NCBI RefSeq assembly: GCF_006716885.1
Contig: NZ_VFPU01000003.1
Span: 62,001-126,000 of the forward strand
DNA: 64,000 nucleotides
Source of the DNA: Ornithinimicrobium humiphilum
GTDB taxonomy: Bacteria > Actinomycetota > Actinomycetes > Actinomycetales > Dermatophilaceae
Direction of reading: 5' to 3'
Numbering within the stretch: position 1 is the stretch's first letter; each line of letters starts with the position of its first letter. The notes below the pieces were generated by a model, which was given only the letters and a program-made list of their open reading frames with translations, did no database searches and was not told the origin of the DNA. The translations under genes were made by a program, and so were the position numbers. Positions 27,444-57,660 of the stretch are shown here, in pieces.

Positions 27444-29200
27444 GACCGCGGCCCTCCGTCGGCGCCGGCCACGTTGTCGGGCCGGGCCTGGCCGTCGTCG
27501 AGCAGCGCCTGCGGGTCGGTCGGGTCGGCCGCGGCCGTCGCCTCCCCGGCGGAGCGCTCGGGGAAGAGCCCCTCGGGCATGCCCCGCCCGTCCCAGTTGA
27601 GCAGGTTGACGCGGCCGCGCTTCTGCCCGCCGGAGACGAGCGTGGAGCCGGAGCGCTCCTGCAGCATCCGGAGGTTCTCGACCGCGACCGGGGTGACCGC
27701 GCCGCGGCCCGAACCCTCGCCGAACGGGCCGGAGGTGTCGAGCAGCTCGTCGTCGAAGGAGCTGACCGGGCAGTCGGTCGCCAGCTCCTCGAGGGCGTGC
27801 GCCTGCTCGCCGTGGGCCGTCGGGATGACGTAGCGGTCGCCGTACTTGGCGATCGCCAGCAGGCGGAACATCTCGTACATCTCCTCCTCGGTCATGCCGA
27901 CCGCCTCGGGGATGTGCGCCTGCGGGTCGCGGCCCAGGTTGATGTCGCGCATGTAGGAGCGCATCGCGGCCAGGCGCCGCAGCACCGCCTCGACCGGCGC
28001 GGTGGCGCCGGCGGTGAAGAGGTTGGCGAGGTACTCGACCGGGATGCGCAGGGCCTCGATCGCCGCGAAGAGGTTGTCCTTGTCCTCGGCGTCGTGCCCG
28101 GTGTCCTTGATGACGTCGACGACGGGAGACAGCGGCGGGATGTACCAGACCATCGGCATGGTGCGGTACTCCGGGTGCAGCGGCAGCGCCACCTTGTAGT
28201 CGTTGATCAGCCGCAGCACGGGCGAGCGCTTGGCGGCGTCCACCCAGTCCTGCGGGATGCCGGCCCGCAGCGCCTCGCGCTCGACCTCGGGGTCGCGCGG
28301 GTCGAGGAAGACCGAGCGCTGCGCCTCGTAGAGGTCGTGCTCGTCCTCGACGGCCGCGGCCTCCAGCACGCGGTCCGCGTCGTAGAGCATCAGGCCGATG
28401 TAGCGCAGCCGGCCCACGCAGGTCTCCGCGCACACGGTCGGGATGCCGACCTCGATGCGGGGGTAGCAGAAGGTGCACTTCTCGGCCTTGCCGGTCTTGT
28501 GGTTGAAGTAGACCTTCTTGTAGGGGCAGCCGGTCACGCACATCCGCCAGCCGCGGCAGCGGTCCTGGTCGACGAGGACGATGCCGTCCTCCTCGCGCTT
28601 GTAGATCGCGCCGGAGGGGCAGGACGCGGCGCAGCTGGGGTTGAGGCAGTGCTCGCAGATGCGCGGCAGGTAGAACATGAAGGTCTGCTCGAACTCGAGC
28701 TTGACCTTGTCCTCGAGGCCCTTGAGCATCGGGTCCTTGACCGCGTGCTCCTGCGAGCCGCCGAGGTCGTCGTCCCAGTTGGCCGACCACTCGATGTTGA
28801 TCTGCTTGCCCGAGATGAGCGAGCGCGGGACGGCCACCGGGAAGGTGTCCTGCGCCGGCGCGTTGAGCAGCGTCTCGTAGTCGTAGGTCCAGGGCTCGTA
28901 GTAGTCCTGGATCGAGGGCATCTTGGGGTTGGAGAAGATCGTCAGCAGCTTGTTGATCCGGCCGCCCCCGCGCAGCTTGAGCCGCCCGTTGTCGGTGCGG
29001 ATCCAGCCGCCCTTCCACTGCTCCTGGTCCTCGTAGCCGCGGGGGTAGCCCAGCCCCGGCCGCGTCTCGACGTTGTTGAACCAGACGTACTCCATACCCT
29101 GGCGGTTGGTCCACGCCTGCTTGCAGGTCACCGAGCAGGTGTGGCACCCGATGCACTTGTCCAGGTTCATGACCATCGCCATCTGGGCCATCACGCGCAT
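27440..29200 (-). CDS. narH: Respiratory nitrate reductase beta subunit (Fe-S)
   Basis: 586 residues with four cysteine clusters: CIGCHTCSVTCK (from Cys16), CEHCLNPSCAASCP, CRGWRMCVTGCP and CTFCYPRIEVGIPTVC. In the third, Trp replaces one Cys, the usual NarH feature that makes a 3Fe-4S centre. NarH wires NarG to the NarI hemes. The ATG at 29200 is preceded by AGGAG at 8 bases, and 35 bases separate it from the narG stop. The ~80-residue C-terminal extension past the core is typical of gram-positive NarH. Confidence 0.97.
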   Translation of the reverse strand: MRVMAQMAMVMNLDKCIGCHTCSVTCKQAWTNRQGMEYVWFNNVETRPGLGYPRGYEDQEQWKGGWIRTDNGRLKLRGGGRINKLLTIFSNPKMPSIQDYYEPWTYDYETLLNAPAQDTFPVAVPRSLISGKQINIEWSANWDDDLGGSQEHAVKDPMLKGLEDKVKLEFEQTFMFYLPRICEHCLNPSCAASCPSGAIYKREEDGIVLVDQDRCRGWRMCVTGCPYKKVYFNHKTGKAEKCTFCYPRIEVGIPTVCAETCVGRLRYIGLMLYDADRVLEAAAVEDEHDLYEAQRSVFLDPRDPEVEREALRAGIPQDWVDAAKRSPVLRLINDYKVALPLHPEYRTMPMVWYIPPLSPVVDVIKDTGHDAEDKDNLFAAIEALRIPVEYLANLFTAGATAPVEAVLRRLAAMRSYMRDINLGRDPQAHIPEAVGMTEEEMYEMFRLLAIAKYGDRYVIPTAHGEQAHALEELATDCPVSSFDDELLDTSGPFGEGSGRGAVTPVAVENLRMLQERSGSTLVSGGQKRGRVNLLNWDGRGMPEGLFPERSAGEATAAADPTDPQALLDDGQARPDNVAGADGGPRS

Positions 29201-29235
29201 GTTCGTCGCTCCTGTATGTGGTGGGGCCGGGGCGG

Positions 29236-32200
29236 TCAGTAGGTCACCGGGGCGGTGCGACGGCGGATGACCGTCACCTCGTCGCGGTTGCTGCCGATGG
29301 GGCCGATGTAGTTGAAGAAGTAGGAGAGCTGCGCGTAGCCGCCCACGAGGTGGCTCGGCTTGAGCAGGATCCGCGTCAGGCTGTTGTGGATGCCGCCGCG
29401 CTTGTCGTTGGTCTCGGTGCGGGGCACGTCGATGAGCCGGTCCTGGGCGTGGTGCATGAAGACCGTGCCCTCGGGCATCCGGTGGCTGACCACGGCGCGG
29501 CAGGCGACGACGCCGTTGCGGTTGACCGCCTCGATCCAGTCGTTGTCGCGGACCCCGATCTTGGCCGCGTCGACGTCGGACATCCAGATCGTCTGCCCGC
29601 CGCGGGAGAGCGAGAGCATGAAGAGGTTGTCCTGGTACTCGCTGTGGATCGACCACTTGTTGTGCGGGGTCAGGTAGCGCACCGAGACCGCGACGGCACC
29701 CTCGTGGTCGCTCTGCGAGCCGAGCGGGGCCTCGCCGAAGAGCGTGGTCATGTTGAGCGGCGGCCGGTAGGTCGGCAGCGACTCGCCCATCCCCTGCACC
29801 CAGTCGTGGTCGAGGTAGAAGTGCTGCCGGCCGGTCAGGGTGTGGAACGGCTTGGAGCGCTCGACGTTGATGGTGAAGGGCGCGTAGCGGCGGCCGCCGC
29901 TCTCCGAGCCCGACCATTCCGGGGAGGTGATGACCGGCACCGGCGCGGCCTGGGTGTCGGCGAAGGTGATCTGCTTGCCCTCGTGCTCGGCCGACAGGTC
30001 GTGCAGCTGGGTGCCGGTCCGCTTCTCCAGGAACCGGAAGCCCTGGGTGGCGAGGTGGCCGTTGCTCACGCCCGACAGGTGCATGATCGCGTCGGCGACC
30101 TGCACGTCGGTCTCCAGCCGTGGCTGGCCGGCGCCGGGGCCGGAGGCGACGGTGCCGTGGCGCTGGCGGAGCAGGTCGACCTCGCGGCCCACCTGGTAGG
30201 CGACACCCTTGGTGACCATGCCGACCTTCTCCAGCAGCGGTCCGATCGAGGTCATCTTGGCGTAGACCGCGGGGTAGTCGCGCTCGACCTGGGCGACGAC
30301 GGGGAGCGTCTTGCCGGGCACCGCCTCGACCTCGCCGTCGCGCCAGTCGAGGACCCGCCCGTGGACCGTGGCCATGGCCTCGGGGGTGTCGTGCCACAGC
30401 GGCTTGGTGACGACGTCGGTGCGGGTGCCGAGGTGGTCCTCGGCCAGCTCGGAGAACCGGCGCGCGATGGCCTTCCACGCCTCCCAGTCGCTCTTGGCCT
30501 GCCACGGCGGGGCGATCGCCGGGTTGAAGGAGTGGATGAACGGGTGCATGTCCGTGGTGTTGAGGTCGTGCTTCTCGTACCAGGTGGCGGCGGGGAGCAC
30601 GACGTCGGAGAACAGCGTGGAGCTCGTCATCCGGAAGTCGAGGGTGAGCAGCAGGTCGAGCTTGCCCTCCAGGGCCCGCTCCGGCCAGACGACGTCGCGG
30701 GGGCGCAGCTCGGGCGGCGCCTCGCTGGCCCGCACCGCGTTGTCGGTGCCGAGCAGGTGCTTGAGGAAGTACTCGTTGCCCTTGGCGGAGGAGCCGAGCA
30801 GGTTGGAGCGCCACAGCGCGAGGACTCGCGGGTGGTTCTCGGGGTTCTCCGGGTCCTCGACGGCGAAGCGCAGCGTGCCGTCCTGCAGGGAGCGGGCGAC
30901 GTAGTCCGGCGCCGGCATCCCGGCCTGGGCCGCCTCGTCGGCGACGTCCAGGGAGCTGCGGTCGAACTGCGGGTAGGACGGGGTCCACCCCAGGCGGACC
31001 GACTGCGCCAGCAGGTCCATCGTCGCCCGGCCCGCGAAGGCGCCGGTCCCGCCGTTGACCCCGTCGGTGTCGAAGGTGTCGTAGCGGTACTGGCTGGTGT
31101 GGACGTACCAGTAGGCGGTCTGGTTCATGTGCCGCGGCGGCCGGGCCCAGTCGAGCGCGAAGGCCAGGTGCTGGAAGCCCATGATCGGCCGGACCTTCTC
31201 CTGGCCGACGTAGTGCGCCCAGCCGCCGCCGTTGCGACCCTGGCAGCCGGTGATCGAGGTGAGCACCAGGAGCGCACGGTAGATCTGGTCGGAGTGGTAC
31301 CAGTGGTTGATGCCGGCGCCCATGAGGATCATGCCGCGGCCCTGGCTGTCGATGGCGTTCTGCGCCCACTCCCGGGCCAGGCGCACGATCTGCTCCTCCG
31401 GGACGCCGGTGACCTGGGCGGCCCAGGCCGGCGTGGCCGGTGCGGACGGGTCGTCGTAGCCGGTCGGCCACGCCCCCGGCAGGCCCTCGCGGCCGACGCC
31501 GTAGTGGGCGAGCAGCAGGTCCAGCACGGTGGTGACCAGACGGTCGCCGACCCGGCGGACCGGGACGCCGCGGCGCTCCAGGACCTGGTGGCCCTCGAGG
31601 TTGTCGAAGCGCGGCAGCGCCACCTCGACCGCGCCGTCGGCGACGCCGTGGAGGGTGAGCACCGGGCGCAGGTCGCCGAGCTCGAGGTTCCAGCGGCCCA
31701 GGCCCTCGTCGCCGAAGCGGTGGCCGAGGGTGCCGTTGGGGATCGCGATCTCCCCGGTCGCCCCGTCGAGCACGGCGGGCTTCCACATGGCGTTCTCGCT
31801 GCCCGACTCCGGGTGGTCCGGCAGGTCGCCGGCGACGAGGAACTTGCCGGGCCGGTAGCTGCCGTCGTCGGCCTCGTCGAGGGTGACGAGGAAGGGCAGG
31901 TCGGTGAAGCGCTGGTTGTAGTCGGTGAAGAAGTCGACCTGCCGGTCGGCGAAGAACTCCCGCAGGACGACGTGCCCCATCCCCATCGCGAGCGCGCCGT
32001 CGGTGCCGGGCGCGGCGGCGACCCACTCGTCGGCGAACTTGACGTTCTCGGCGTAGTCGGGGGCGACGGCGATGACCTTCTGCCCCCGGTAGCGCGCCTC
32101 GGTCATCCAGTGGGCGTCGGGGGTCCGGGTGAGCGGGACGTTGGAGCCCCACATGATGAGGTAGCCGGCGTCCCACCAGTCACCGGACTCGGGCACGTCG

Positions 32201-32943
32201 GTCTGGTCGCCGAACATCTGCGGGGAGGCGTTGGGCAGGTCGGCGTACCAGTCGTAGAAGGACAGCATCGGGGCGCCGACGAGCTCGTGGAAGCGGGCGC
32301 CGGAGGCGTAGGAGACGGGCGACATCGCGGGGATCGGCGAGAAGCCGGCGATCCGGTCGGGCCCGTAGCGCTTGACCGTGTAGACGTAGGCCGCGGCGAC
32401 GAGGTCGACGACCTCCTCCCAGCTGGCGCGCATCAGCCCGCCCTTGCCGCGGGCCGACTTGTAGGTGCGCACGCGCTCCTCGTCCTGGACGATCGAGGCC
32501 CAGGCCAGCACGGGGTCGCCGTACTCCTCCCGGGCGGCGCGGAACATCTCCAGGAGCACCCCGCGGACGTAGGGATAGCGCACCCGCGTCGGGCTGTAGG
32601 TGTACCAGGAGAAGGCGGCCCCGCGGGGGCACCCGCGGGGCTCGTACTCGGGGCGGTCGGCGCCGGCCGAGGGGTAGTCGGTCTGCTGCGCCTCCCAGGT
32701 GATGATCCCGTCCTTGACGTAGACCTTCCACGAGCAGGACCCGGTGCAGTTGACGCCGTGCGTGGAGCGGACCACCTTGTCGTGGCTCCAGCGGTCGCGG
32801 TAGAAGGCGTCACCGGAGCGGCCACCCTCCAGGCGCAGCGTGCGCCGGTCGTCGGAGACGGTCCCCCGGGTGAAGAACCGGCGGGTGCCGACGAGAGCGT
32901 CGCTGAGGGGGCCGTCGAGGCGCGGGGTCGATACGTCACTCAT
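29236..32943 (-). CDS. narG: Respiratory nitrate reductase alpha subunit (Mo-bisMGD)
   Basis: 1235 residues. The N-terminal FeS ligands are His62, Cys66, Cys70 (HGVNCTGSC) and Cys105. The stretch YDWYADLPNASPQMFGDQTD holds the Asp that coordinates molybdenum in NarG. It reduces nitrate to nitrite on the cytoplasmic side with two electrons from NarH. There is no Tat signal, as expected for membrane-bound Nar. ATG overlaps the stop of the upstream regulator (ATGA), and AGGAG lies 9 bases upstream. Confidence 0.98.
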   Translation of the reverse strand: MSDVSTPRLDGPLSDALVGTRRFFTRGTVSDDRRTLRLEGGRSGDAFYRDRWSHDKVVRSTHGVNCTGSCSWKVYVKDGIITWEAQQTDYPSAGADRPEYEPRGCPRGAAFSWYTYSPTRVRYPYVRGVLLEMFRAAREEYGDPVLAWASIVQDEERVRTYKSARGKGGLMRASWEEVVDLVAAAYVYTVKRYGPDRIAGFSPIPAMSPVSYASGARFHELVGAPMLSFYDWYADLPNASPQMFGDQTDVPESGDWWDAGYLIMWGSNVPLTRTPDAHWMTEARYRGQKVIAVAPDYAENVKFADEWVAAAPGTDGALAMGMGHVVLREFFADRQVDFFTDYNQRFTDLPFLVTLDEADDGSYRPGKFLVAGDLPDHPESGSENAMWKPAVLDGATGEIAIPNGTLGHRFGDEGLGRWNLELGDLRPVLTLHGVADGAVEVALPRFDNLEGHQVLERRGVPVRRVGDRLVTTVLDLLLAHYGVGREGLPGAWPTGYDDPSAPATPAWAAQVTGVPEEQIVRLAREWAQNAIDSQGRGMILMGAGINHWYHSDQIYRALLVLTSITGCQGRNGGGWAHYVGQEKVRPIMGFQHLAFALDWARPPRHMNQTAYWYVHTSQYRYDTFDTDGVNGGTGAFAGRATMDLLAQSVRLGWTPSYPQFDRSSLDVADEAAQAGMPAPDYVARSLQDGTLRFAVEDPENPENHPRVLALWRSNLLGSSAKGNEYFLKHLLGTDNAVRASEAPPELRPRDVVWPERALEGKLDLLLTLDFRMTSSTLFSDVVLPAATWYEKHDLNTTDMHPFIHSFNPAIAPPWQAKSDWEAWKAIARRFSELAEDHLGTRTDVVTKPLWHDTPEAMATVHGRVLDWRDGEVEAVPGKTLPVVAQVERDYPAVYAKMTSIGPLLEKVGMVTKGVAYQVGREVDLLRQRHGTVASGPGAGQPRLETDVQVADAIMHLSGVSNGHLATQGFRFLEKRTGTQLHDLSAEHEGKQITFADTQAAPVPVITSPEWSGSESGGRRYAPFTINVERSKPFHTLTGRQHFYLDHDWVQGMGESLPTYRPPLNMTTLFGEAPLGSQSDHEGAVAVSVRYLTPHNKWSIHSEYQDNLFMLSLSRGGQTIWMSDVDAAKIGVRDNDWIEAVNRNGVVACRAVVSHRMPEGTVFMHHAQDRLIDVPRTETNDKRGGIHNSLTRILLKPSHLVGGYAQLSYFFNYIGPIGSNRDEVTVIRRRTAPVTY

Positions 32944-34026: not shown

Positions 34027-35406
34027 ATGAGCAGCAGCCCCTCGACGTCCGGCACCGCCCCGGACCGGGCCGACCGCAACGGATCCACCCGGGTGATGTG
34101 GGCGTCCACCGTGGCGTTCACCCTGATGTTCGCCGTCTGGCTGATGTTCGGGATCCTCGGCAAGCCGATCCAGGAGGAGTTCGGCCTCAGCGACACCCAG
34201 CTGTCGTGGGTCTCGGCCGTCGCCGTCCTCAACGGCTCGCTGTGGCGACTGCCGGCGGGGATGCTGGCCGACCGCGTCGGCGGTCGCAAGGTGCTCTCGG
34301 TGATGCTGGCGGTCACGGCCGTGCCGGCCTTCCTGGTCAGCCGGGCCGACAGCTACGCGATGCTGCTCGTGCTGGCCTTCCTCGTCGGCTTCGCCGGCAA
34401 CGCCTTCAGCGTCGGCATCGCGTGGAACGCCGCCTGGGCGCCCCGTGAGCGCCAGGGCTTCGCGCTCGGGCTCTTCGGCGCCGGCAACGTCGGAGCGTCG
34501 GTGACCAAGTTCATCGGCCCGCCGATCATCGCCGCCACGGCCGGCACCACCGTCGTGCTCGGGCTGCAGGGCGGGTGGCGCCTCATCCCGGTCGTCTACG
34601 CGGTGCTGCTGCTCGTCATGGCGGTCGTGCTCTGGGTCGTGACCCCGTCCCAGGACCGCATGCCCGGCGCCACCCGGCCGCTGCGCGAGATGCTCGCGCC
34701 GCTGTCGCAGCCCCGCGTCTGGCGCTTCAGCCTCTACTACGTCGCCGTCTTCGGCGCCTACGTCGCGCTGTCGGCCTGGATGCCCCTCTACTACATGAAC
34801 AACTTCGGGGTCTCGCTCACGACGGCCGGGCTGCTCACCGCGCTGTTCATCTTCCCGGCCTCGCTGCTCCGGCCCGTCGGCGGCTGGTTCTCCGACCGCT
34901 GGGGCGCCCGCCGGGCGATGTACGGCACGTTCGTGGTCATGCTCGTCACCACGGGCCTCCTCATGATGCCCAACGGCCACGTCGTCATCGAGCACGCCGA
35001 CGGCAGCCGGACCGAGCACCTGGCCTACGCGATGCACATCGTCCCGTTCACCGCCCTGCTCTTCCTGCTCGGCTGCGCCATGGGCGTGGGCAAGGCCGCC
35101 GTCTACAAGCACATCCCCGAGTACTTCCCCGGCGCCGTCGGCCCCGTCGGCGGGCTGGTCGGCATGCTCGGCGGTCTCGGCGGCTTCTTCCTGCCGCCGC
35201 TGTTCGCCTACACCCAGGCGTGGTCGGGCTTCCCGACCTCGACCTTCTTCGTGCTCTTCCTGCTCACCGCCGTCTGCCTGGTGTGGATGCACCTGACGGT
35301 CGTGCGGATGCTGCACGAGCGCTCCCCCGAGGTCTCCGACGACCTCGAGGCCCCCGTCCCCACCGCCCCTGCCCCGGCCGCCGTGGCCGTCGGCACGACC
35401 CTCTGA
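34027..35406 (+). CDS. narK: Nitrate/nitrite transporter, NarK1-like MFS
   Basis: 459 residues, 12 helices. The nitrate-porter motifs are AGNAFSVGIAWNAAW, FGAGNVGASVTKFIGP and the C-terminal PEYFPGAVGPVGGLVGMLGG. This grouping is closest to NarK1, a nitrate/proton symporter, by eye. AGGAG lies 5 bases before the ATG. It is the first gene of the rightward transcript, followed 12 bases later by a second transporter. A Pro/Ala-rich C-terminal tail is cytosolic. Confidence 0.93.
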   Translation: MSSSPSTSGTAPDRADRNGSTRVMWASTVAFTLMFAVWLMFGILGKPIQEEFGLSDTQLSWVSAVAVLNGSLWRLPAGMLADRVGGRKVLSVMLAVTAVPAFLVSRADSYAMLLVLAFLVGFAGNAFSVGIAWNAAWAPRERQGFALGLFGAGNVGASVTKFIGPPIIAATAGTTVVLGLQGGWRLIPVVYAVLLLVMAVVLWVVTPSQDRMPGATRPLREMLAPLSQPRVWRFSLYYVAVFGAYVALSAWMPLYYMNNFGVSLTTAGLLTALFIFPASLLRPVGGWFSDRWGARRAMYGTFVVMLVTTGLLMMPNGHVVIEHADGSRTEHLAYAMHIVPFTALLFLLGCAMGVGKAAVYKHIPEYFPGAVGPVGGLVGMLGGLGGFFLPPLFAYTQAWSGFPTSTFFVLFLLTAVCLVWMHLTVVRMLHERSPEVSDDLEAPVPTAPAPAAVAVGTTL

Positions 35407-35418
35407 GGAGACCTGCCC

Positions 35419-36816
35419 ATGAGCACCGTCGACGACCGCCGCACCGGAGGTGAGTGGCTGCAGTCCTGGGACCCCGAGAACGAGGAGACCTGGGACAGCG
35501 GGCTGGCCTGGCGCACCCTGTGGATCACCACCTTCTGCCTGACGCTGGCCTTCGTCGCCTGGTTCCTGCCCAGCGCGATCATCCCCAAGCTCAACGCCCT
35601 CGGCTACACCTTCAGCCAGGGTCAGCTCTACTGGATGGCCGCCATGCCCGGCCTGGCCGCCGGCCTCTTCCGCCTGGTGTGGATGGTCCTGCCGCCGATG
35701 ATGGGCACGCGCAAGATGGTGAGCCTGAGCACGCTGCTGCTCATCGCCTCCACGCTCGGCTGGGGCGTGCGCGTGCAGGAGCCGACCGCCCCCTACTGGG
35801 AGCTCATGGTGCTGGCCTTCCTCGCCGGCATCGGCGGCGGCGTCTTCTCCGGCTTCATGCCCTCGACCTCCTACTTCTTCCCCAAGCGCAAGCAGGGCAC
35901 CGCCCTGGGACTGCAGGCGGGCATCGGCAACTTCGGCGTCTCCTTCGTCCAGCTGCTCACGCCCTACCTCATCGGCCTCGGCGCGCTGGCGGTCTTCGGC
36001 GGCAGCCAGTCGATGACCTTCCCGGGCCAGGAGCCGCAGGAGGTCTGGTACCAGAACGCCGCCTTCGTGTGGATCCCGCTCATGGTGGTCGGCGCGGTGC
36101 TCGCCTGGACGATGCTCAAGTCGGTGCCGGTCAAGGCCAACATCCGCCAGCAGTTCGACATCTTCGGCAACCAGGACACCTGGTGGATGACGCTGCTCTA
36201 CATCATGACCTTCGGCACCTTCTCCGGGCTGTCGGCGCAGTTCGGCCTCCTCATGGCCAACCTCTACGGCATCGGCAACCCCGACATCGTCCAGGGTGCG
36301 GGGGCCGACGCCCAGATGCTCGTCGCCGGCTACGACGTGCCGGACGTGGCGGCCTTCGTCTTCCTCGGCCCGCTCGTCGGCGCCGGCGCCCGTGTGCTCT
36401 TCTCGCCGCTCACCGACCGGATGGGCGGCGCGATCTGGACGCTGATCTCGGGCCTGGGCCTCATCGGCTCGATCGCGATCACCATTCCGGCCCTGACCCC
36501 CGACACCAGCTCGGCCGAGGCCCTCAGCGGCGACTTCCGCCACTTCCTCCTCGGCATGATCGCGATCTTCCTCTTCGCCGGCATCGGCAACGCCTCGACC
36601 TTCAAGCAGATGCCGATGATCTTCGAGCGCCGACAGGCCGGTGGCGTCATCGGCTGGACCGCCGCGATCGCCGCCTTCGGGCCGTTCCTCTTCGGCGTCG
36701 GCCTGACGATCATGAGCCCGACCGCCTTCTACGTCATCGGCATCGCCTGGGCCGTGATGTGCGTCGCGATCACCTGGTGGCGCTACGCCCGCCCCGGCGC
36801 CCCGAAGCCCGGCTGA
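35419..36816 (+). CDS. narK2: Nitrate/nitrite transporter, NarK2-like MFS
   Basis: 465 residues, 12 helices. N-terminal WDPENEETWDSGLAWRTLWI is typical of the NarK2/NarU group, as are FFPKRKQGTALGLQAGIGNF and the C-terminal RRQAGGVIGWTAAIAAFGPF. Such proteins are thought to exchange nitrate for nitrite. With the preceding narK1-like gene it forms a tandem pair, like the fused NarK1-NarK2 of Paracoccus but as two proteins. The start has GGAG about 8 bases upstream. Confidence 0.93.
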   Translation: MSTVDDRRTGGEWLQSWDPENEETWDSGLAWRTLWITTFCLTLAFVAWFLPSAIIPKLNALGYTFSQGQLYWMAAMPGLAAGLFRLVWMVLPPMMGTRKMVSLSTLLLIASTLGWGVRVQEPTAPYWELMVLAFLAGIGGGVFSGFMPSTSYFFPKRKQGTALGLQAGIGNFGVSFVQLLTPYLIGLGALAVFGGSQSMTFPGQEPQEVWYQNAAFVWIPLMVVGAVLAWTMLKSVPVKANIRQQFDIFGNQDTWWMTLLYIMTFGTFSGLSAQFGLLMANLYGIGNPDIVQGAGADAQMLVAGYDVPDVAAFVFLGPLVGAGARVLFSPLTDRMGGAIWTLISGLGLIGSIAITIPALTPDTSSAEALSGDFRHFLLGMIAIFLFAGIGNASTFKQMPMIFERRQAGGVIGWTAAIAAFGPFLFGVGLTIMSPTAFYVIGIAWAVMCVAITWWRYARPGAPKPG

Positions 36817-47281: not shown

Positions 47282-49087
47282 CTAGCGCACGACCTGGCGC
47301 AGCCGCCCGTCCAGGCGGCGGGTCCAGCCGCGCCCGTCGAGGTGCTCCAGCAGCGGGACGGCCACCCGCCGCGTCGTGCCGAGGGCCTGCCGCGCCTCGC
47401 TGAGCGTGAACGGCTGCGGCAGCGTCGCGAGCTCGCGCATCGCCCGGGCCGGGGCGTCGGGCAGCAGCACCACGTCGTCGGGCAGCCGCAGCAGCCGACC
47501 CACCCGTGCGGCGGCCGCGAGCTCGGCCGGGCCCAGGCCGAGCCGGTCGAGGTCCTCGCGCTCCGGAGCCGCGAACGGCGACCCGCGCAGCCGCGCCTCG
47601 AGCTCGGCGACGGCGGCCTCGGCCGGACCCAGCCCGGCGTCGCGGGGCAGGTGCACGCGCCCGTCGGTGATCTCCAGCCCCGCGCGCGGGGCGACGTGCC
47701 GCACGAGGTCGGGGCCCAGGTCCTCCAGGTGGTCGGGCAGGTCGAGCCGGCGGGCCAGCTCGACGACGGGCACCCCGGCGCTGAGGGGCTGGGCCTCGGA
47801 CTGGGCACGAACCACCTGCCCGGCCCGGGCGGTCCAGCCCCGCACCGCCTCCTCGTCCACCCACCAGGAGCCGACCCGCGCCCCGGCAGTGGGTTCCGGC
47901 AGGGCCAGCCGCCGCAGCTCGTCCGGGCTCACGGCCGACCGCGACCGCAACCGCAGGTCGGCGAGCGGGCCGCCGGTCTCCAGGTCCTCGGCCCGCCGGC
48001 GAGCAGCACCCCGGCGGCGCAGCGGCAGCGGGTCGACGTCCACGACGGTGGCGGACCACAGGCGACGGGTGCCCGGGTCGCGCAGGAGCAGGCGGTCGCC
48101 GACGTGCCACGGCAGCGGCGAGGGCAGGGTGAGCCGGGCGTGCCGCTCGCCCAGCGGCCGCACGTGCACCGGCCGGTCGGTCGTGCCGACGTGGAGCACG
48201 GCGTGCTGGGGAGGCAGCGGCCGCCCGGGACGCGGGTCGAGGTCGAGCGGGACCGGCGCCACCGCGACGTCGAGGACGACCGCCTCGCCGAAGGCGTCGG
48301 GCGTCACCAGCACCGAGCCGCGCGGCACGTCGGCCGCCTCGACCCGGCGCACGTTGACGGCCACCCGCGAGACCGGGCCGACGCTCTCGCGGGCCACGTC
48401 CGCGCTGTGCAGCCCCCGGACGACGACCTCCCGCGCCCGGTCGGGACCGAACGCCACCAGCCGGTCCCCGCCGGCCAGGGTCCCGCCGCCCAGGGTGCCC
48501 GTGACGACCGTGCCGGCGCCGGGCACCGTGAAGGACCGGTCGCACCACAGCCGGACGGGGGCCGCCGGGTCGGGCTCGGGCAACCTCGCCACCAGCCGCC
48601 CAAGCGCTTCCCGGAGCTGCGGCACACCCGCACCGGTGCGGGCGGAGACCACGACCGTCTCGGCGGTGACCCCGGCGCCGCGCAGCCGCCGCTCGGCCTC
48701 CTCGCGGGTCCGCGCCGTCCGCTCCTCGTCGGCGAGATCGGCCCGGGCGAGCACGAGCAGCCCGTCGGGGATGCCGAGGGCACGGACCGCGGCGAGGTGC
48801 TCGCTGCTCTGGGCCTGCCAGCCCTGGTCGGCGGCGACGACGAAGACGACGGCGGGGGCGGGCCCGAGACCGGTCAGCGTCGTCGCGACGAACCGCTGGT
48901 GCCCCGGCACGTCGACGAACGCCACGTCGGTGCCGTCCGGCAGCGTGGTCCAGGCGAAGCCCAGCTCGATCGTCAGCCCGCGGGCCTGCTCCTCCGCCAG
49001 CCGGTCGGGATCCCGCCCGGTCAGCGCCCGGACGAGCGTGGACTTGCCGTGGTCGACGTGCCCGGCCGTGGCGAGGACCCGCCTCAT
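47282..49087 (-). CDS. selB: Selenocysteine-specific elongation factor SelB
   Basis: 601 residues. GTPase motifs: GHVDHGKSTL, the G2/G3 segment with DVPGHQRFV, and a G4 site reading ARADLAD in place of TKxD. The EF-Tu-like domains II and III follow, then about 240 residues of winged-helix repeats that bind the SECIS hairpin. SelB carries Sec-tRNA to in-frame UGA codons; the likely client is the formate dehydrogenase gene at 54.3-57.7 kb. ATG overlaps the selA stop (ATGA). Confidence 0.95.
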   Translation of the reverse strand: MRRVLATAGHVDHGKSTLVRALTGRDPDRLAEEQARGLTIELGFAWTTLPDGTDVAFVDVPGHQRFVATTLTGLGPAPAVVFVVAADQGWQAQSSEHLAAVRALGIPDGLLVLARADLADEERTARTREEAERRLRGAGVTAETVVVSARTGAGVPQLREALGRLVARLPEPDPAAPVRLWCDRSFTVPGAGTVVTGTLGGGTLAGGDRLVAFGPDRAREVVVRGLHSADVARESVGPVSRVAVNVRRVEAADVPRGSVLVTPDAFGEAVVLDVAVAPVPLDLDPRPGRPLPPQHAVLHVGTTDRPVHVRPLGERHARLTLPSPLPWHVGDRLLLRDPGTRRLWSATVVDVDPLPLRRRGAARRRAEDLETGGPLADLRLRSRSAVSPDELRRLALPEPTAGARVGSWWVDEEAVRGWTARAGQVVRAQSEAQPLSAGVPVVELARRLDLPDHLEDLGPDLVRHVAPRAGLEITDGRVHLPRDAGLGPAEAAVAELEARLRGSPFAAPEREDLDRLGLGPAELAAAARVGRLLRLPDDVVLLPDAPARAMRELATLPQPFTLSEARQALGTTRRVAVPLLEHLDGRGWTRRLDGRLRQVVR

Positions 49088-50406
49088 GCCGGCGGGGCCG
49101 CGAGCGCCTCGCGCAGAGCCCGCAGCAGGTCGGCGTCCCGGTCCGGGGGTATGCAGCGCACGTCCACAAGTCCGAGGCCGTCGTCGACGCGCGCGAGGAC
49201 GGCGGGCACGTCGCCGGTCGGCTGCCGCAGCCGGGAGACCGCCTCGACGGGAACCTCGACGGCCCAGCCCGGGAGCGGGACCCCGGGCGCCCCGCCGCCG
49301 CCGACCCGGCCCTCGACCGGCACGACCTCGCGGCCGAGCTCGTCGGCCAGCCGCCGCGCCCGGCGGCGCAGCTCGTCGACGGGTGCGTGGAGAGCGTCGT
49401 GGACCGGCGTCGAGGGGCCGCGGAGCGTGGCCTCGAGGGCGGCGACCGTGAGCTTGTCGACGCGGAGCGCGCGGGCGAGCGGGTGGCGACGCAGGCGCTC
49501 GACGACGTCGGCGTCGCCGAGCACGAGCCCCGCCTGCGGCCCACCGAGCAGCTTGTCGCCGCTGGCGGTGACGACGGTCGCGCCGGCGCGCAGGGTGGTG
49601 GTGGCGTCGGGCTCGTCGGGCAGGAGCGGGTCGGGCCGCAGCAGCCCGGAGCCGATGTCGGCGACCACGGGGACCGGGCTGCCGTCGGGGCGACGGAGGG
49701 TCGCGAGCTCCGCCAGGCCCACCCCGGAGACGAAGCCCTCGACCCGGAAGTTGCTGGGGTGCACCTTGAGGACGCACCCGGTGTCCGGCCCGATCGCGTC
49801 GGCGTAGTCGCGCAGGTGCGTGCGGTTGGTCGTGCCGACCTCGCGCAGCCGCGCCCCCGTCGAGGCGATGAGGTCGGGCAGCCGGAAGCCGTCGCCGATC
49901 TCGACCATCTCCCCGCGGGAGACGACCACCTCCCGCCCCGCCGCCAGCGCGGTGGTCGCGAGGACGAGGGCGGCCGCGCCGTTGTTGACGACGAGCGCCC
50001 CGCCGGCGTCGGGCACCGCCGCGCGCAGGGCCGCCAGCATCCCGGCCCCCCGGCGCCCGCGCGCGCCGCTGGTCAGGTCGAGCTCGACGTCGACGTGCCC
50101 GGCGGCGTCGAGGACGGCCTCGAGCGCCGCCGCGGAGAGCGGGGCGCGACCCAGGTTGGTGTGGACGACGACCCCCGTGGCGTTGAGCACCGGGGTCAGC
50201 GAGCTGGCACGCGTCGGCAGCGCCGCGAGCGCGGCCGCCTCCACCTCGGCGGGCGGGATCTCGCCGCGCCGGGCGCGCTCCTGGGCACCGGTGACCGCGG
50301 CCCGGACCGTGTCGCGGCCCAGGCGCGCGGCCGCCTCCACCAGGGCCGGGGAGGCGAGCAGCGCGTCGGTGCGCGGGATCGCGCGACGCGGGTCGGACTG
50401 GCTCAC
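49084..50406 (-). CDS. selA: L-seryl-tRNA(Sec) selenium transferase SelA
   Basis: 440 residues, PLP-dependent. The cofactor Lys285 is in TASGDKLLGGPQAGL; N-terminal NATGVVVHTNLGRAPLS and KVHPSNFRVEGF are SelA hallmarks. It converts Ser-tRNA(Sec) to Sec-tRNA(Sec) with selenophosphate from SelD. GTG start with AAGGGAG 6 bases upstream. It lies 48 bases after tRNA-Sec on the same strand and overlaps selB. Confidence 0.96.
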   Translation of the reverse strand: MSQSDPRRAIPRTDALLASPALVEAAARLGRDTVRAAVTGAQERARRGEIPPAEVEAAALAALPTRASSLTPVLNATGVVVHTNLGRAPLSAAALEAVLDAAGHVDVELDLTSGARGRRGAGMLAALRAAVPDAGGALVVNNGAAALVLATTALAAGREVVVSRGEMVEIGDGFRLPDLIASTGARLREVGTTNRTHLRDYADAIGPDTGCVLKVHPSNFRVEGFVSGVGLAELATLRRPDGSPVPVVADIGSGLLRPDPLLPDEPDATTTLRAGATVVTASGDKLLGGPQAGLVLGDADVVERLRRHPLARALRVDKLTVAALEATLRGPSTPVHDALHAPVDELRRRARRLADELGREVVPVEGRVGGGGAPGVPLPGWAVEVPVEAVSRLRQPTGDVPAVLARVDDGLGLVDVRCIPPDRDADLLRALREALAAPPA

Positions 50407-50454: not shown

Positions 50455-50550
50455 TGGCGGAGGCGGACGGGAATCGAACCCGCCAGACCGAGATGCTCGG
50501 TCTCACCGGTGTTGAAGACCGGGGGGCCCACCAGGAACCCGGACGCCTCC
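50455..50550 (-). tRNA. selC: tRNA-Sec (anticodon TCA)
   Basis: Read on the minus strand, the gene starts GGAGGCG and ends in CCTCC, then GCCA, so the CCA end is encoded. The anticodon loop CTTCAAC between CCGGT/ACCGG arms gives anticodon TCA (50513-50515). A long extra arm built from AGACCGAG/CTCGGTCT and the T loop GGTTCGATTCC follow. The total of 96 bases and the long variable arm are diagnostic of bacterial tRNA-Sec. It precedes selA and selB on the same strand. Confidence 0.96.
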
Positions 50551-50587: not shown

Positions 50588-51586
50588 ATGCAACCTCTTC
50601 GGCTGACCCAGCTCGCCCGCGGCGGCGGCTGCGCCTGCAAGATCCCCGCCGGTGAGCTCGAGGACCTCGTCGCCGGCCTGCGCGGCGTCGACCCGGCCAT
50701 CGGCGCGGACGTCCTCGTCGGGCTCGACGACGGCGACGACGCCGCGGCCGTCCGCGTCGAGGGCGGGATCGCCGTGATCTCCACCGCCGACTTCTTCACC
50801 CCGGTCGTCGACGACCCCTACGACTGGGGCCGGATCGCCGCGGCGAACGCGCTCTCGGACGTCTACGCGATGGGCGGCACGCCGGTCATGGCGATCAACC
50901 TCGTCGGCTGGCCGCGCGAGGCCCTCGACCAGGGGCTGCTGCGCGAGGTGCTCCAGGGCGGGCTGGACGTCGCGTCGGTGGCCGGCTGCCCCGTGCTCGG
51001 CGGCCACAGCATCGACGCGCCCGAGCCCGTCTACGGCATGGCCGTCACCGGCACCGCCGACCCGGACCGGCTGCTGCGCAACGACGCGGCCGAGCCGGGT
51101 CTGCCGATCAGCCTCACCAAGCCCCTCGGCGTCGGGGTGCTCAACAACCGGGCCAAGGCCACCGGCGACGTCAGCGCCGACGCGGTCGCGAGCATGGTGC
51201 GGCTCAACCGCGACGCGTCACTGGCTGCGCTGGCAGCGGGTGCCCGCGCGGCGACGGACGTCACCGGCTTCGGGCTGCTCGGCCACCTCTACAAGATGTG
51301 CCGCGCCTCGCGCGTGACGGCGCGTATCGACTCCGCCGCCGTGCCCTACCTGCCGGGTGCCCGCGCGGCCCTGGCCGCCGGCCACGTCCCGGGCGGCTCG
51401 CGGCGCAACCTCGACTGGGTGCGGCCGCACCTCGTGCCGCGGGTCGGCGAGGACGAGCTGCTGCTGCTCGCCGACGCCCAGACCTCCGGCGGCCTGCTCG
51501 TGGTCGGCGAGGTGCCGGGCGCCCCGGTCGTCGGCGAGACGCTGCCGGTCGACGCCCTCGGCGGCGCGATGGTCGAGGTCGTCTGA
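50588..51586 (+). CDS. selD: Selenide, water dikinase SelD
   Basis: 332 residues. The N-terminal catalytic segment is GGGCACKIP with Cys15, Cys17 and Lys18; Cys is used here where some SelD proteins have Sec. DDGDDAAAVR and TADFFTPVVDDPYDWGRIAA are the ATP/metal-binding parts. It makes selenophosphate from selenide and ATP. The start lies 37 bases from the divergent tRNA-Sec gene, so one short region may drive both directions. Confidence 0.97.
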   Translation: MQPLRLTQLARGGGCACKIPAGELEDLVAGLRGVDPAIGADVLVGLDDGDDAAAVRVEGGIAVISTADFFTPVVDDPYDWGRIAAANALSDVYAMGGTPVMAINLVGWPREALDQGLLREVLQGGLDVASVAGCPVLGGHSIDAPEPVYGMAVTGTADPDRLLRNDAAEPGLPISLTKPLGVGVLNNRAKATGDVSADAVASMVRLNRDASLAALAAGARAATDVTGFGLLGHLYKMCRASRVTARIDSAAVPYLPGARAALAAGHVPGGSRRNLDWVRPHLVPRVGEDELLLLADAQTSGGLLVVGEVPGAPVVGETLPVDALGGAMVEVV

Positions 51587-52037: not shown

Positions 52038-53177
52038 TCAGCCGACGGTCGTGATGCTGTCGTGGACCGCGCCGCGGGCGCGTCGCTCCTCGAGCCGGCG
52101 GCGCTGCGGACCGACGGTGTAGCGCGGGTCCCTCGCCGACTCGAGGCCGGCCTCGACGATGCCGAAGCGGGTCAGCGCCGAGGCCGCCGCGAGCGCGACG
52201 CCCGACGCCACGGCGAGCGCGCGACTGCGGCGGGCCCCGAGGGCCCCGAGGCCGCCCGCGACCGTGAGCGCCTTGGCCAGCCGCAGCTTGCGTCCGGCGG
52301 GGCCGGTCTCGAGCGGCTCGCGCAGCTCCAGGCCCTCCAGGTGCTGCTCCAGCCGGTGCGTCGCGACCAGGTCGGTGGCGGCGCCGAGCACCGCGAGCCG
52401 CTGCACCGGCCCCGTCCGGCCGGGACCGAGCGCCAGCTGCACACCCGCCGAGGCCATCGCCGCCGACGCCACGAAGACGAAGGGCAGCTGCCGCCGGCTC
52501 TCGAACCAGACCGGCGTCACGGTGTCCGAGAGCAGCACCGCGGTGTAGGCCGCCAGCGGCGGCGCGAAGAGCGCCTGCCCGACCGTCGCCGGGGCCTCCA
52601 CGACCCCCAGCGCCGTCCTCGCCACGGCGAGCGGTCCCGTGGCGGGCAGCGGCACCATCCGCGACACCTCGGCCGCCGTGGCCGCACCGGCGAAGGCGGC
52701 GTAGCCGGAGAGGATCCAGGTGCCGACCGACATCGGCGAGGTGAGCTTGACCGTCCGCAGCATGTTGAGGAAGCGCTCCGGCCGGCCCAGGTCGGCCACC
52801 AGCGTCGCCCCGCTGAGCGCGACCGCGGTCATCGCCGTCAGCCGGCTGCTCCGGCGCAGACCCGGACGCCCGGTCGCCGCGGCACCCGCGGCGATCAGGC
52901 CGGAGCCCGCGGCCACGCCGCCCAGGAAGAGGTAGGCCGGGATCTCGTGCTTCCACGGCACCGGCTTGATGACGGGCTGGCCGTAGTAGTCGACGAACTC
53001 GGCGTCGGGCACCGCGGGCGCCTCGCGCCGACCACCGCCGTCACGGTCCAGCCAGCTGCGGCCGCCCTGCACGACGTCGCGGGCGGCCCCGGTCACCGCG
53101 TCGCGCACCGAGGTGCGGCGCCGGCGTCGCGGCCCGTCCTCCGGCGGCCGGTAGCTGTCGAAGCGGGACGTCGTCAC
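52038..53177 (-). CDS. NrfD/PsrC-type membrane subunit of formate dehydrogenase
   Basis: 379 residues, eight or so helices after a ~75-residue polar N terminus. WKHEIPAYLFLGGVAAGSGL is the family's quinone-site opening. Helix patterns with DLGRPERFLNMLRTVKLTSP and SPMSVGTWILSGYAAFAG are typical of NrfD. It anchors the enzyme and passes electrons to or from the quinone pool without heme. GTG start overlaps the Fe-S subunit stop (GTGA). Confidence 0.9.
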   Translation of the reverse strand: MTTSRFDSYRPPEDGPRRRRRTSVRDAVTGAARDVVQGGRSWLDRDGGGRREAPAVPDAEFVDYYGQPVIKPVPWKHEIPAYLFLGGVAAGSGLIAAGAAATGRPGLRRSSRLTAMTAVALSGATLVADLGRPERFLNMLRTVKLTSPMSVGTWILSGYAAFAGAATAAEVSRMVPLPATGPLAVARTALGVVEAPATVGQALFAPPLAAYTAVLLSDTVTPVWFESRRQLPFVFVASAAMASAGVQLALGPGRTGPVQRLAVLGAATDLVATHRLEQHLEGLELREPLETGPAGRKLRLAKALTVAGGLGALGARRSRALAVASGVALAAASALTRFGIVEAGLESARDPRYTVGPQRRRLEERRARGAVHDSITTVG

Positions 53178-54283
53178 GGGCGCCTCCCCAGGAACGCGAC
53201 GGCGGCAGCCCCGAGGAGCCCCAGCCCGGCGATGCCCGCGGTGCGGAACATCTCGGCCAGCCGCGCCGTGGGCACGACCGGGTCCGGGGGCAGGCCGTAG
53301 ACCTCGGGCTCGTCCAGGAGCAGGAAGACCGAGCCCGTGCCCCCCACGCCGTCGTCGTCGTTGGCGCCGTAGAGCCGCGCCTCCGTGAACCCCTGCTCGT
53401 GCAGCTGCGCGACGCGGGCCCGGGCTAGCGCGACCATCTCCTCGCGCGTGCCGAAGCGGATCGAGGTCGTCGGGCAGGTCTGGGCGCAGGCCGGCGTCTG
53501 GCCGTCGGTGAGCCGGTCGTAGCAGAGCGTGCACTTCTGGGCGACGCCGACGTCGGGCACGTGCCCGTCGGCCCGCACCGAGACGGCCGAGTCGGTGCGC
53601 CGCTCGATGACGCCGAACGGGCAGGCCCCCACGCAGTAGCCGCAGCCGTTGCACACGTCGGCCTGCACCACCACCGTGCCGTGCTCGCTCCGGAAGAGCG
53701 CCCCGGTGGGACAGACGTCGAGGCAGCCGGCGTGCGTGCAGTGCTTGCAGACGTCGGAGGCCATCAGCCAGCGGAAGTCCGGCAGCGGGGCCCCCATCGC
53801 GCTCACCTCGGCGGCGGTGACCTCACCACCACCCGGGTATGCCGTCTCCTCGGTCCCCGCGCCGTTCGCCGCCGCGAGCAGGTCGCGCAGGTCCGGGCCG
53901 TGACCCTCCGGGGCCGGGGGCAGCGAAGGGGTCGCCGAGGGAGAGGGCGCCGGGGACGGGGCGCCGACCTGCGGCATACCCAGGTCGACCAGGCGCCGCC
54001 CGGACGCGCGGGCCTCGAGGATGCGGTCCTTGCTCTGCTCGACGAAGGCGACGTGCCGCCAGGTGCTGGCGCCCAGGCCGCCGGTGTTGTCGTAGGAGTT
54101 GCCGCTCAGGCCCAGGCCGTCGAGGGGCAGGGCGTTCCACTCCTTGCAGGCCACCTCGCAGGCCTTGCAGCCGATGCAGATCGAGGTGTCGGTGAAGAAG
54201 CCCTTGCGCTCCGGCGCCTCCTCCCAGCCCGCGTCGGGGGCGGGGTCGGTGCGGCCGGCCAGCTGGCGCGCGAGGTAGCCCAT
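53174..54283 (-). CDS. fdhB: Formate dehydrogenase Fe-S (beta) subunit
   Basis: 369 residues. Four 4Fe-4S clusters: CIGCKACEVACKEW (from Cys36), CKHCTHAGCLDVCP, CNGCGYCVGACPFG and CTLCYDRLTDGQTPACAQTC. Between the first and second is a ~75-residue insertion rich in Pro and Ser (about 108-160) not seen in FdnH. A C-terminal membrane helix (AGLGLLGAAAVAFL) anchors it. It links FdhA to the NrfD-like subunit. Its ATG overlaps the FdhA stop by one base. Confidence 0.92.
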   Translation of the reverse strand: MGYLARQLAGRTDPAPDAGWEEAPERKGFFTDTSICIGCKACEVACKEWNALPLDGLGLSGNSYDNTGGLGASTWRHVAFVEQSKDRILEARASGRRLVDLGMPQVGAPSPAPSPSATPSLPPAPEGHGPDLRDLLAAANGAGTEETAYPGGGEVTAAEVSAMGAPLPDFRWLMASDVCKHCTHAGCLDVCPTGALFRSEHGTVVVQADVCNGCGYCVGACPFGVIERRTDSAVSVRADGHVPDVGVAQKCTLCYDRLTDGQTPACAQTCPTTSIRFGTREEMVALARARVAQLHEQGFTEARLYGANDDDGVGGTGSVFLLLDEPEVYGLPPDPVVPTARLAEMFRTAGIAGLGLLGAAAVAFLGRRP

Positions 54284-57200
54284 CAGCCCTCCTTCTCCGT
54301 CTCGTCCGGGTCGTGCGGCGTCTCCGTCGTCCGTCCCGCGGCCTCCGCGCGGCGGCGGGCGACCTCCGGCGGCACCTCGTCGAGGCGCTCGTTGCCGGTC
54401 GTCACCGTGCTGCCGGCGCGCGACTGGTGCTCCGCGACCAGGCGCTGCAGCTCCTCGCCGCGGGGCCGACGGCCGGGCCGGATGTCGCAGGATCCCACCT
54501 TGGACTCCTGGATGTGGACGTTGGGGTCGAGCACCACGCCGAGCAGGTCGTTGGCGGAGTCGCCCTCGACGATCGCGTCGCGGCCCACGCCCCAGTGGTA
54601 GGGCAGGCCGATCTGGTGCAGCGTGCGGCCGTTGATCGTCAGCGGCCGGACCCGGTCGGTGACGAGCACCCTCGCCTCGATCGCGGACCGGGCCGAGATG
54701 ATCGTCGCCCAGCCGCCGTTCTCGAGCCCGACCTCGGCGGCGAGCTCGGGCGAGACCTCGCAGAACATCTCGGGCTGCAGCTCGGAGAGGTAGGGCAGCC
54801 AGCGGCTCATGCCGCCGGCGGTGTGGTGCTCGGTGAGCCGGTAGGTCGTGAAGACGTAGGGGTAGACGTCGCTGCCGGGCTCGTCGCCGGACGGGCTCCA
54901 CAGGTTGTCCTTGCGCGGGTAGACCAGCCGGCCGGGGTTGCGCTGCTGGCTGTGCAGCGGGTTGTCGACCGGGGACTCCTGCGCCTCGTAGTGGGTCGGC
55001 AGGGGACCGTCGACCATGCCCTTGGGCGCGAAGAGCCAGCCCTTGCCGTCGGCCTGCATGATGAACGGGTCGTCGCCGGCGAGGGCCGCCGGGCCGCCCA
55101 CGTCGGGGTCGGGCCGGTAGGAGGGGTCGCGGTCGACGGGGAAGTCGGGCACGTCCTTGCCGACCCAGCGGCCGGTCTCCTCGTCCCACCAGACGTACTT
55201 CTTGCGCTCGCTCCACGGCCGACCCTGCGGGTCGGCGGACGCCCGGTTGTAGAGCAGCCGGCGGTTGGCGGGCCAGGCCCAGCCCCACTGCGCGGCGACC
55301 TCGTCCTGCTCCTCCCGGGGGGCGCGGTTGGCGGCCCGGTTGACGCCGCCGGCGAAGACTCCGGTGTAGATCCAGCAGCCGCCCGCCGTCGAGCCGTCCG
55401 CCTTCATCTCGGTGAAGGTGTCCAGCGGTTGCCCGGCCTTCTCGCCGGTGACGTGGTAGCCGTTGATCTCGCGCAGCACCGCCTCGGCGTCGACGTCGCC
55501 GTGCTCGTCGGTGGGGTAGTCCCAGGTGAGGTCGAGCAGCGGCCGGTCGCGCTCGTCGGTCGAGCCGGCGAGCAGCTCGCGGATGCGGCAGCCGAGCTGG
55601 AAGTAGAAGTCGAGCTCGCTCTGCGCGTCGCCCGGCGGCTGCACGGCCTGGTGGCGCCACTGCAGCATGCGCTGCGTCTGGGTGAAGGTCCCGGACTTCT
55701 CCACGTGGGTCGCGGCCGGCAGGAAGAAGACCTCGGTCCGGATGTCCTCGGTGCGCAGCTCGCCGGAGGCGATCTCCGGGGAGTCCTTCCAGAAGGTCGC
55801 GGTCTCGATGAGCTGCAGGTCGCGCACCACCAGCCACTTCAGTCTGGTCAGCGCGAGCCGCTGCATGCGGGCGTGGGCCGAGCCGACCGCGGGGTTCTGG
55901 CCCACGACGAAGTAGCCCTCGACCTCGCCGTCGACCATCGCCATCGTCGTCTGGTAGGTGCCGTGCGCCCCGGTGAGGCGGGGCAGGTAGTCGTAGCAGA
56001 AGTCGTTGTCGGGCGTCGCGGCGTCGCCGAACCAGGCCTTGAGCAGGCTCGCGGTGTAGGCGGGCGCCTCCACCCAGAAGCCCTTCTGCAGCGGGGAGGA
56101 GATCTCGGAGAGGTAGTCCTCGAGGGTGTCGTGCTCGCCGGCCACGGGCATCGGCAGGTAGCCGGGCAGCAGGTTGAACAGGGTCGGGATGTCGGTGGAG
56201 CCCTGGATGCTCGCGTGGCCGCGCAGCGCCATGATGCCGCCGCCCGGGCGGCCCATGTTGCCGAGCAGCAGCTGGAGGATGGCCGCGGCGCGGATGAACT
56301 GCGCCCCGAGGCTGTGCTGGGTCCAGCCCAGCGCGTAGGCGAAGCAGGTGGTCCGCTCCCGCCCGGAGTTGTCGGTGATCGCCCGGGCCAGCTCGGCGAA
56401 CTGCTCCCCGTCGATGCCGCACACGTCGCGCACCATCTCCGGGGTGTAGCGCCGGTAGTGGCGACGCAGGATCTGGAAGACGGTCCGCGGGTGCTCCAGC
56501 GTCTCGTCGCGCTCCACGTCGGCGTGCGCGAGCGGCGAGCCGTAGGCACCGTGCTCGTGACCGCCGGCCCGGGCCCGGTCCTCCGCGTCGTCGTCCTCGT
56601 CCCCCGGCTCCTGGATGCCGTCGCTCCCGTCCGAGGAGCGCCGGGTCTGGTAGGCCCAGCTCTCGTTGTCGTAGGTGCCGGTGGCCGGGTCGTAGCCGGA
56701 GAAGATGCCGTCGAGGTCCTCGGTGTCGCGGTAGTCCTCGCTGACGAGCGTGGCGGCGTTGGTGTAGGACACGACGTAGTCGCGGAAGTAGAGGTCGTTG
56801 CTCAGCACGTGGTTGATCAGCGCGCCGAGCAGCACGACGTCGGTGCCGGCCCGGATGGGCACGTGCGTGTCAGCGACCGCCGAGGTCCGCGTGAAGCGCG
56901 GGTCGACGTGGATGACGCGCGCCCCACGGGCCTTGGCCTCCATCACCCACTGGAAGCCCACCGGATGGCACTCGGCCATGTTGGAGCCCTGGATGACGAT
57001 GCAGTCCGCGTTGGCCATGTCCTGCAGGGACTGGGTGGCGCCGCCGCGCCCGAACGAGGCCCCCAGACTGGGAACCGTGGAGCTGTGTCATATGCGGGCC
57101 TGGTTCTCGATCTGGATCGCCCCCGACGCCGTGTAGAGCTTCTTCATGAGGTAGTTCTCCTCGTTGTCGAGGGTGGCTCCCCCGAGCGAGGCGATCCCCA

Positions 57201-57660
57201 TGGTGCGGCGGACGCGGCGACCCTGGTCGTCGAGGTCCTGCCAGGTGCGGCGGCGGGTCTCGACGTAGCGGCGGGCGATCATGTCGATCGCGGTGTCGCG
57301 CTCGAGCGGCTGCCACTGCGTGGCACCCGGCGCGCGGTAGAGCACCTGGGTCTGACGTGATGGCGAGTTGACGAGCTGCTCGCTGGCCGCGCCCTTGGGG
57401 CACAGCCGGCCCCGGCTCACCGGCGAGTCCGGGTCGCCCTCGATCTGCACGACGCGCTCGCCGGAGACGAAGACCTTCTGCCCGCAGCCCACGGCGCAGT
57501 AGGGGCAGACGCTCTGCACGACCCGGTCGGCGGTGGAGGTGCGCGGCTCGACCTCGCGCGTCCGCCGGGAGGTGACCGCGGCGCCCCGCCCGAGCAGGTC
57601 GCCGCTGGCCAGCTGGCGCAGCGCGGGCCAGCCGAGGAAGGTCGCGCTCCTGCGGGTCAT
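54283..57660 (-). CDS. fdhA: Formate dehydrogenase catalytic subunit, selenoprotein (in-frame TGA = Sec191)
   Basis: 1125 residues if TGA at 57090-57088 is read as selenocysteine. Before it lies a 4Fe-4S site Cys52, Cys55, Cys59 and Cys87 and the context ENQARI; after it HSSTVPSLGASFGRGGATQS continues without a break to the stop at 54283. This matches the Sec site of FdnG/FdhF (Sec, His next to it). A charged insertion DGIQEPGDEDDDAEDRA lies near residue 350. No hydrophobic Tat signal is evident, so it may face the cytoplasm. It oxidises formate to CO2 at a Mo/W-bisMGD site. GGGGAGA precedes the ATG at 57660. Confidence 0.94.
57058..57090 (-). promoter_or_regulatory. Sec codon and bacterial SECIS-like hairpin in fdhA
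   Basis: TGA at 57090-57088. After 18 bases the loop AGUCU (57069-57065) is closed by GGUUCCC (57076-57070) pairing with GGGGGCC (57064-57058), two of the pairs being U-G. The loop contains the GU that SelB recognises and sits at nearly the same distance from UGA as in E. coli fdhF, whose upper stem also starts GGUU. Inside the coding sequence, as usual in bacteria. Confidence 0.85.

Follow-up and report, generated by a model that had tools for sequence, protein, structure and literature searches.

The fdhA gene and its neighbours

A frame on the minus strand of the window, that is, of the whole 64,000-nucleotide stretch of Ornithinimicrobium humiphilum DNA analysed here, encodes the alpha subunit of a formate dehydrogenase (fdhA, 57660-54283, 1125 residues). 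Its translation agrees with the original prediction that this frame is broken by a single internal stop, the TGA at 57090-57088; the end of the frame is TGA as well. The internal TGA corresponds to residue 191, in the context ENQARI-U-HSSTV, and is predicted to be read as selenocysteine (Sec). The translated protein scored 1960.6 bits against NF041513, the curated NCBIfam model formate_DH_Act for actinobacterial formate dehydrogenases (cut-off 1400), covering positions 3-1066 of the 1067 of this model, and 967.5 bits against TIGR01553 (cut-off 814.2), and the Pfam domains Molybdop_Fe4S4, Molybdopterin and Molydop_binding (Fe4S4, catalytic and dinucleotide-binding, respectively) were all detected. 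In the phmmer search of solved structures, 1h0h (725.2 bits), 8cm4 (717.9 bits), 1kqf (697.3 bits) and other formate dehydrogenases were matched, with homology on either side of the TGA. The 1h0h alignment spans the TGA, the aligned residue being an X between QARI and HSATV. The alignment to solved formate dehydrogenases (1h0h) agrees with the earlier assignment of this TGA to the Sec site of FdnG/FdhF, and the codon is followed by His, as expected of an actinobacterial Sec formate dehydrogenase. The further expectation that simple annotation would break the gene in two or call it a pseudogene is doubtful, since an NCBI model, NF041513, exists for the protein. The main import of the locus is its correct annotation, in which fdhA must be read through the UGA.

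Downstream from fdhA are located, on the same strand, fdhB (53174-54283), encoding a 4Fe-4S electron-transfer subunit (Pfam Fer4_11; TIGR01582 at 175.2 bits, below the cut-off of 334.7), and fdhC (52038-53177, its start being placed by the overlap with fdhB), encoding an NrfD-like membrane subunit (PF03916, 62.8 bits, cut-off 25.8). These are followed by selD on the plus strand (50588-51586; selenophosphate synthetase without inner TGA; TIGR00476, 381.2 bits, cut-off 125) and then, again on the minus strand, by the tRNA-Sec gene selC (50459-50550; RF01852, 72.6 bits, gathering score 47), selA (49084-50406; selenocysteine synthase; TIGR00474, 407.4 bits, cut-off 267.9) and selB (47282-49087; selenocysteine-specific elongation factor). 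SelB exceeded the TIGR00475 cut-off narrowly (248.4 versus 242.25 bits), and its C-terminal winged helix was found (PF09107, SelB-wing_3). The Sec-decoding trait is therefore complete, with tRNA-Sec, SelA, SelB and SelD all encoded beside fdhA within 11 kb. FdhD, which is needed for maturation of formate dehydrogenases, is encoded elsewhere in the genome (217.3 bits). A scan for promoters and terminators was uninformative, giving no promoter-like and one terminator-like element where shuffled sequences averaged 0.1 and 0.9, respectively. Upstream of fdhA and divergent from it lies the gene for a pyridoxamine 5'-phosphate oxidase-like protein (PF12900; 57796-58275, plus strand), for which tblastn gave no match at 1e-8 among the 86 loci tested.

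Conservation of the Sec codon and of the gene cluster

A total of 119 genomes of the family, including that of the window, were searched. A close relative of fdhA in the TGA form was present in 64 of these, the Sec codon being read directly in 34 and the others being classed by stop count. Five genomes carried a Cys form, with the Cys codon read in all five, two carried a fragment or a distant form, and 48 were without the gene. A strong tRNA-Sec, defined in this analysis by a score on the upper side of the empty interval from 55.6 to 64.2 bits, was detected in 61 of the 64 TGA-form genomes, in none of the five Cys genomes, in both genomes with the fragment or distant form, and in 4 of the 48 gene-less genomes, indicating that the Sec machinery is not tied to the FdhA gene alone. 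The three TGA-form genomes without a strong tRNA-Sec are two assemblies of hundreds of contigs (G034 and G050) and one that is 89% complete (G089).

For the reading of individual loci, 41 from the family genomes (own genome included) were combined with the best 80 of at least 596 confirmed loci among at least 597 pattern matches in named genomes, giving 121 loci in which a few contigs occur twice. The closest among the named matches listed were Ornithinimicrobium murale (81%) and species of Knoellia and Janibacter (80%). The Sec-site motif scan read 117 of the 121 loci, of which 110 had TGA and 7 a Cys codon; three of the four loci missed by the scan (L048, L085 and L090) show TGA, and the fourth (L105) yielded no codon. 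Stops were listed for 40 of the 41 family loci, and in 39 of these no further stop interrupted the frame from the start region through to the C-terminus, the single exception being a distant, fragmentary relative (L049). Second TGAs were flagged in some relatives. In the TGA forms examined, with the exception of L049, the next in-frame stop is located 868-949 codons beyond the Sec codon; these stops appear to be ordinary gene ends, although the alignment continues beyond them.

These counts bear on the possibility that the TGA is nothing more than a nonsense mutation, leaving fdhA dead or divided into two fragments. An ATG at 57018, downstream from the TGA, would indeed start a frame of 911 residues. 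Against such a pseudogene, however, the same TGA is found in loci from many genera, the protein downstream from it is conserved, the remaining seven loci carry Cys in its place, and the Sec machinery is both intact and adjacent, so that we regard inactivation of the gene as extremely improbable. The outcome named beforehand as counting against Sec, namely close homologues in which an ordinary stop here is followed by a start of its own for the second part, was absent among the loci read.

The neighbouring genes are also widely kept. Among the best 80 of the at least 596 named loci, FdhB was present in 77 and FdhC in 73, tRNA-Sec was found in the examined flank of 64, and selA, selB, selC and selD were found together in 57. 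Many of the named loci missing sel genes are short or are cut off early. No tRNA-Sec was detected in three Brevibacterium loci despite a long flank, and no sel genes were found in the flank of the two Actinomyces loci of the Cys form. The order and orientation of the sel genes differ among the relatives.

A bacterial SECIS hairpin behind UGA-191

Shortly 3' of the TGA, as had been predicted, the transcript contains a hairpin with an AGUCU loop (minus strand, 57076-57058), extending over nucleotides 15-33 as counted from the U of UGA, with the sequence GGUUCCC-AGUCU-GGGGGCC and the loop at 57069-57065, including G23-U24. RNAfold gave -12 kcal/mol for this element and closed one extra A-U pair, leaving 8 pairs and a 3-nt loop (GUC). 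By itself, the window hairpin folded no better than shuffled sequences (z -0.45; 63 of 200 shuffles folded equally well or better), and single-sequence folding was rejected as evidence. Such a fold is not above chance in this GC-rich DNA, and the support for the hairpin is comparative.

The comparison included 110 TGA rows with 65 distinct 36-mers, the window copy (L009) being one row; since many rows come from near relatives, the counts do not represent independent events. When nucleotides 13-36 were folded, the pair 21-27 was closed in all 110 TGA rows and in one of the seven Cys rows. The dinucleotide G23-U24 was present in 110/110 TGA rows, and U24 in none of the seven Cys rows. Over the 65 distinct sequences, 94.3% of the cells were paired, as compared with a mean of 89.8% and a maximum of 91.0% in 1000 shuffles, and sliding the partner by 1-3 positions left only 31-70% of the cells paired. 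Compensatory changes were detected at pair 18-30, which is U-A, C-G, U-G or G-C (U-A and C-G being compensatory), and at pair 21-27, where two loci (L103 and L111) have U-A in place of C-G. The hairpin itself thus holds in all 110 TGA rows, with compensatory changes, while the 7-pair stem first described for it does not: pair 17-31 is U-U in 13 and pair 15-33 is non-standard in 13 of the 65 distinct rows, leaving a conserved core of five pairs (16-32, 18-30, 19-29, 20-28 and 21-27), a U that may stay unpaired, and a bottom pair that is often broken.

This U, U17, is the second base of a Val codon and is invariant in the 110 TGA rows as well as in all seven Cys rows, the opposite base being G, A or U. 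U24 occupies a third codon position, which is free to vary. The codon carrying it was AGT in 65 and GGT in 45 of the 110 TGA rows; in the part of these genes that lies between the Sec site and the following stop, with the SECIS codon counted, AGT makes up 4.2% of the Ser codons and GGT 13.8% of the Gly codons. U17, G23 and U24 presumably carry identical numbers in E. coli fdhF. A stem-loop just 3' of the UGA with G-U in its loop is present; for bacterial SECIS elements, a bulged U and a loop with neighbouring G and U left unpaired are described in a passage of PMC8704476.

The same evidence bears on reading of the UGA without selenium, by near-cognate Trp or Cys insertion, yielding a dual product at low level. 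SECIS-independent read-through of about 5-8% is given for an E. coli fdhF reporter in a section of PMC4513850. Against such a process stand the G-U loop hairpin and the rare codons, which are preserved in the TGA form but not in the Cys forms, the co-occurrence of the TGA form with tRNA-Sec, and the selenite dependence described for another actinobacterium in part of PMC7176365. Selenium-free reading is therefore considered very improbable. It is almost certain, as judged from sequence, that FdhABC, as encoded by the locus, is a membrane-associated formate dehydrogenase of actinobacterial type that contains molybdopterin and Sec, with UGA-191 decoded as Sec.

By homology, SelB carrying Sec-tRNA-Sec would bind the hairpin just 3' of UGA-191 and deliver Sec, and ribosomes would pass the UGA to complete the 1125-residue alpha subunit. 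The Sec is the likely metal ligand of the active site, and would be supplied by SelA, SelB, tRNA-Sec and SelD of the same cluster. Electrons from formate would reach the NrfD-like subunit, and from there the quinone pool, by way of the FeS clusters in FdhA and FdhB. The locus suggests that oxidation of formate by this route requires selenium in this organism.

Known systems and sel genes without FdhA

The arrangement is already known, a textbook case in many actinobacteria, and the Sec reading is right but ordinary, since such clusters have been published (PMC2830990 and PMC7176365, each in the part considered). FdhA and SelD are the most widespread bacterial selenoproteins, FdhA being often located beside sel genes, according to passages of PMC1794560 and PMC5029168. 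In Corynebacterium aurimucosum, selABD, selC and a UGA-containing fdnG are placed in one cluster (excerpt of PMC2830990). For Actinomycetospora chiangmaiensis, a portion of PMC7176365 describes Sec formate dehydrogenases, with one cluster listing selA and selB, and a removal of formate that depended on selenite, formate formation being almost negligible when selenite was given. The window resembles these actinobacterial Sec formate dehydrogenases (NF041513; the C. aurimucosum fdnG cluster and A. chiangmaiensis FDH1, the proteins of the two papers being compared by description in those excerpts) in its full-model alpha subunit, internal UGA, FeS and membrane subunits and adjoining sel genes, and no substantive difference was found beyond the variable order and orientation of the sel genes.

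E. coli FDH-N (FdnGHI, 1kqf) is similar in that the window alpha subunit passes TIGR01553 and matches 1kqf. The third subunit of the window, however, is NrfD-like (PF03916) and not the cytochrome b556 gamma subunit, FdnI of E. coli being a cytochrome b. The alpha subunit of FDH-N has a Tat signal, whereas window FdhA lacks a Tat-like N-terminus in a simple test. In this test, a twin-Arg motif with a hydrophobic stretch was found in 0 of 106 FdhA N-termini, that of the window included; 11 of the 117 rows had no CxYC anchor and were left out. In 2 of the 106, a hydrophobic stretch occurred in the absence of the motif. As no Tat signal is evident at the FdhA N-terminus (57525-57660, minus strand) or in its relatives, the catalytic side of the enzyme may be cytoplasmic. 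The formate dehydrogenases of Desulfovibrio type (1h0h, 8cm4) are among the top solved-structure matches, with the Sec site aligned in 1h0h; these enzymes are periplasmic and have other partner subunits.

In the genus of the window, two genomes, G047 (L050) and G080 (L051), contain tRNA-Sec, SelA, SelB and SelD and no close FdhA relative, and a third, G104, gave neither a strong tRNA-Sec nor an FdhA match. In a tree of 68 SelA sequences, window SelA grouped with those of Janibacter and Knoellia (100/100), and SelA of G047 and G080 formed a separate pair (100/100), the bootstrap in both cases being not settled. Another sel cluster, with tRNA-Sec of 80-82 bits, SelA, SelB and SelD and without FdhA within 20 kb, was observed in G072 (L052), G098 (L053) and G115 (L055), the last of which also carries a TGA-containing FdhA and a second tRNA-Sec. 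In G007, an FdhA piece (L054, 7781-8356; residues 3-183 with two internal TAG) lies beside selD, selC, selA and selB; a distant FdhA (L048, 42-47% identical), whose Sec site has TGA, is also encoded in this genome. Part of PMC5029168 lists cases in which the Sec trait was transferred between actinobacteria.

Sec-decoding organisms without FdhA all have a Sec-containing SelD among those examined in a passage of PMC1794560; the SelD frames of G047, G080, G072, G098 and the second G115 cluster are open, without inner TGA. Pfam molybdopterin matches in G047, G080, G072 and G098 contained no stop, the same search having flagged the TGA of the window's own FdhA. The UGSC selenoprotein model gave no match in five genomes (G000, G047, G080, G072 and G098), and none in the control genomes either. 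No convincing selenoprotein was detected among TGA-read-through frames between tRNA-Sec and selA in L050 or near selA, selB and selD in L051, the long frames of this type being mostly GC-rich noise. It is conceivable, and in our judgement unlikely, that Sec serves more than formate oxidation in this genus, the congeners G047 and G080 with their different sel lineage, and perhaps the window's own genome, encoding an unrecognised selenoprotein.

The window also contains narGHJI, encoding a respiratory nitrate reductase (25927-32943, minus strand), at a distance of about 20 kb from the fdh genes. Because NarGHJI is encoded in the same window, respiration from formate to nitrate is plausible, and formate oxidation may feed this nitrate reductase. 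Two NarK-like transporters are encoded at 34027-36816 on the plus strand (TIGR00886, 217 and 231 bits, below the cut-off of 311.7).
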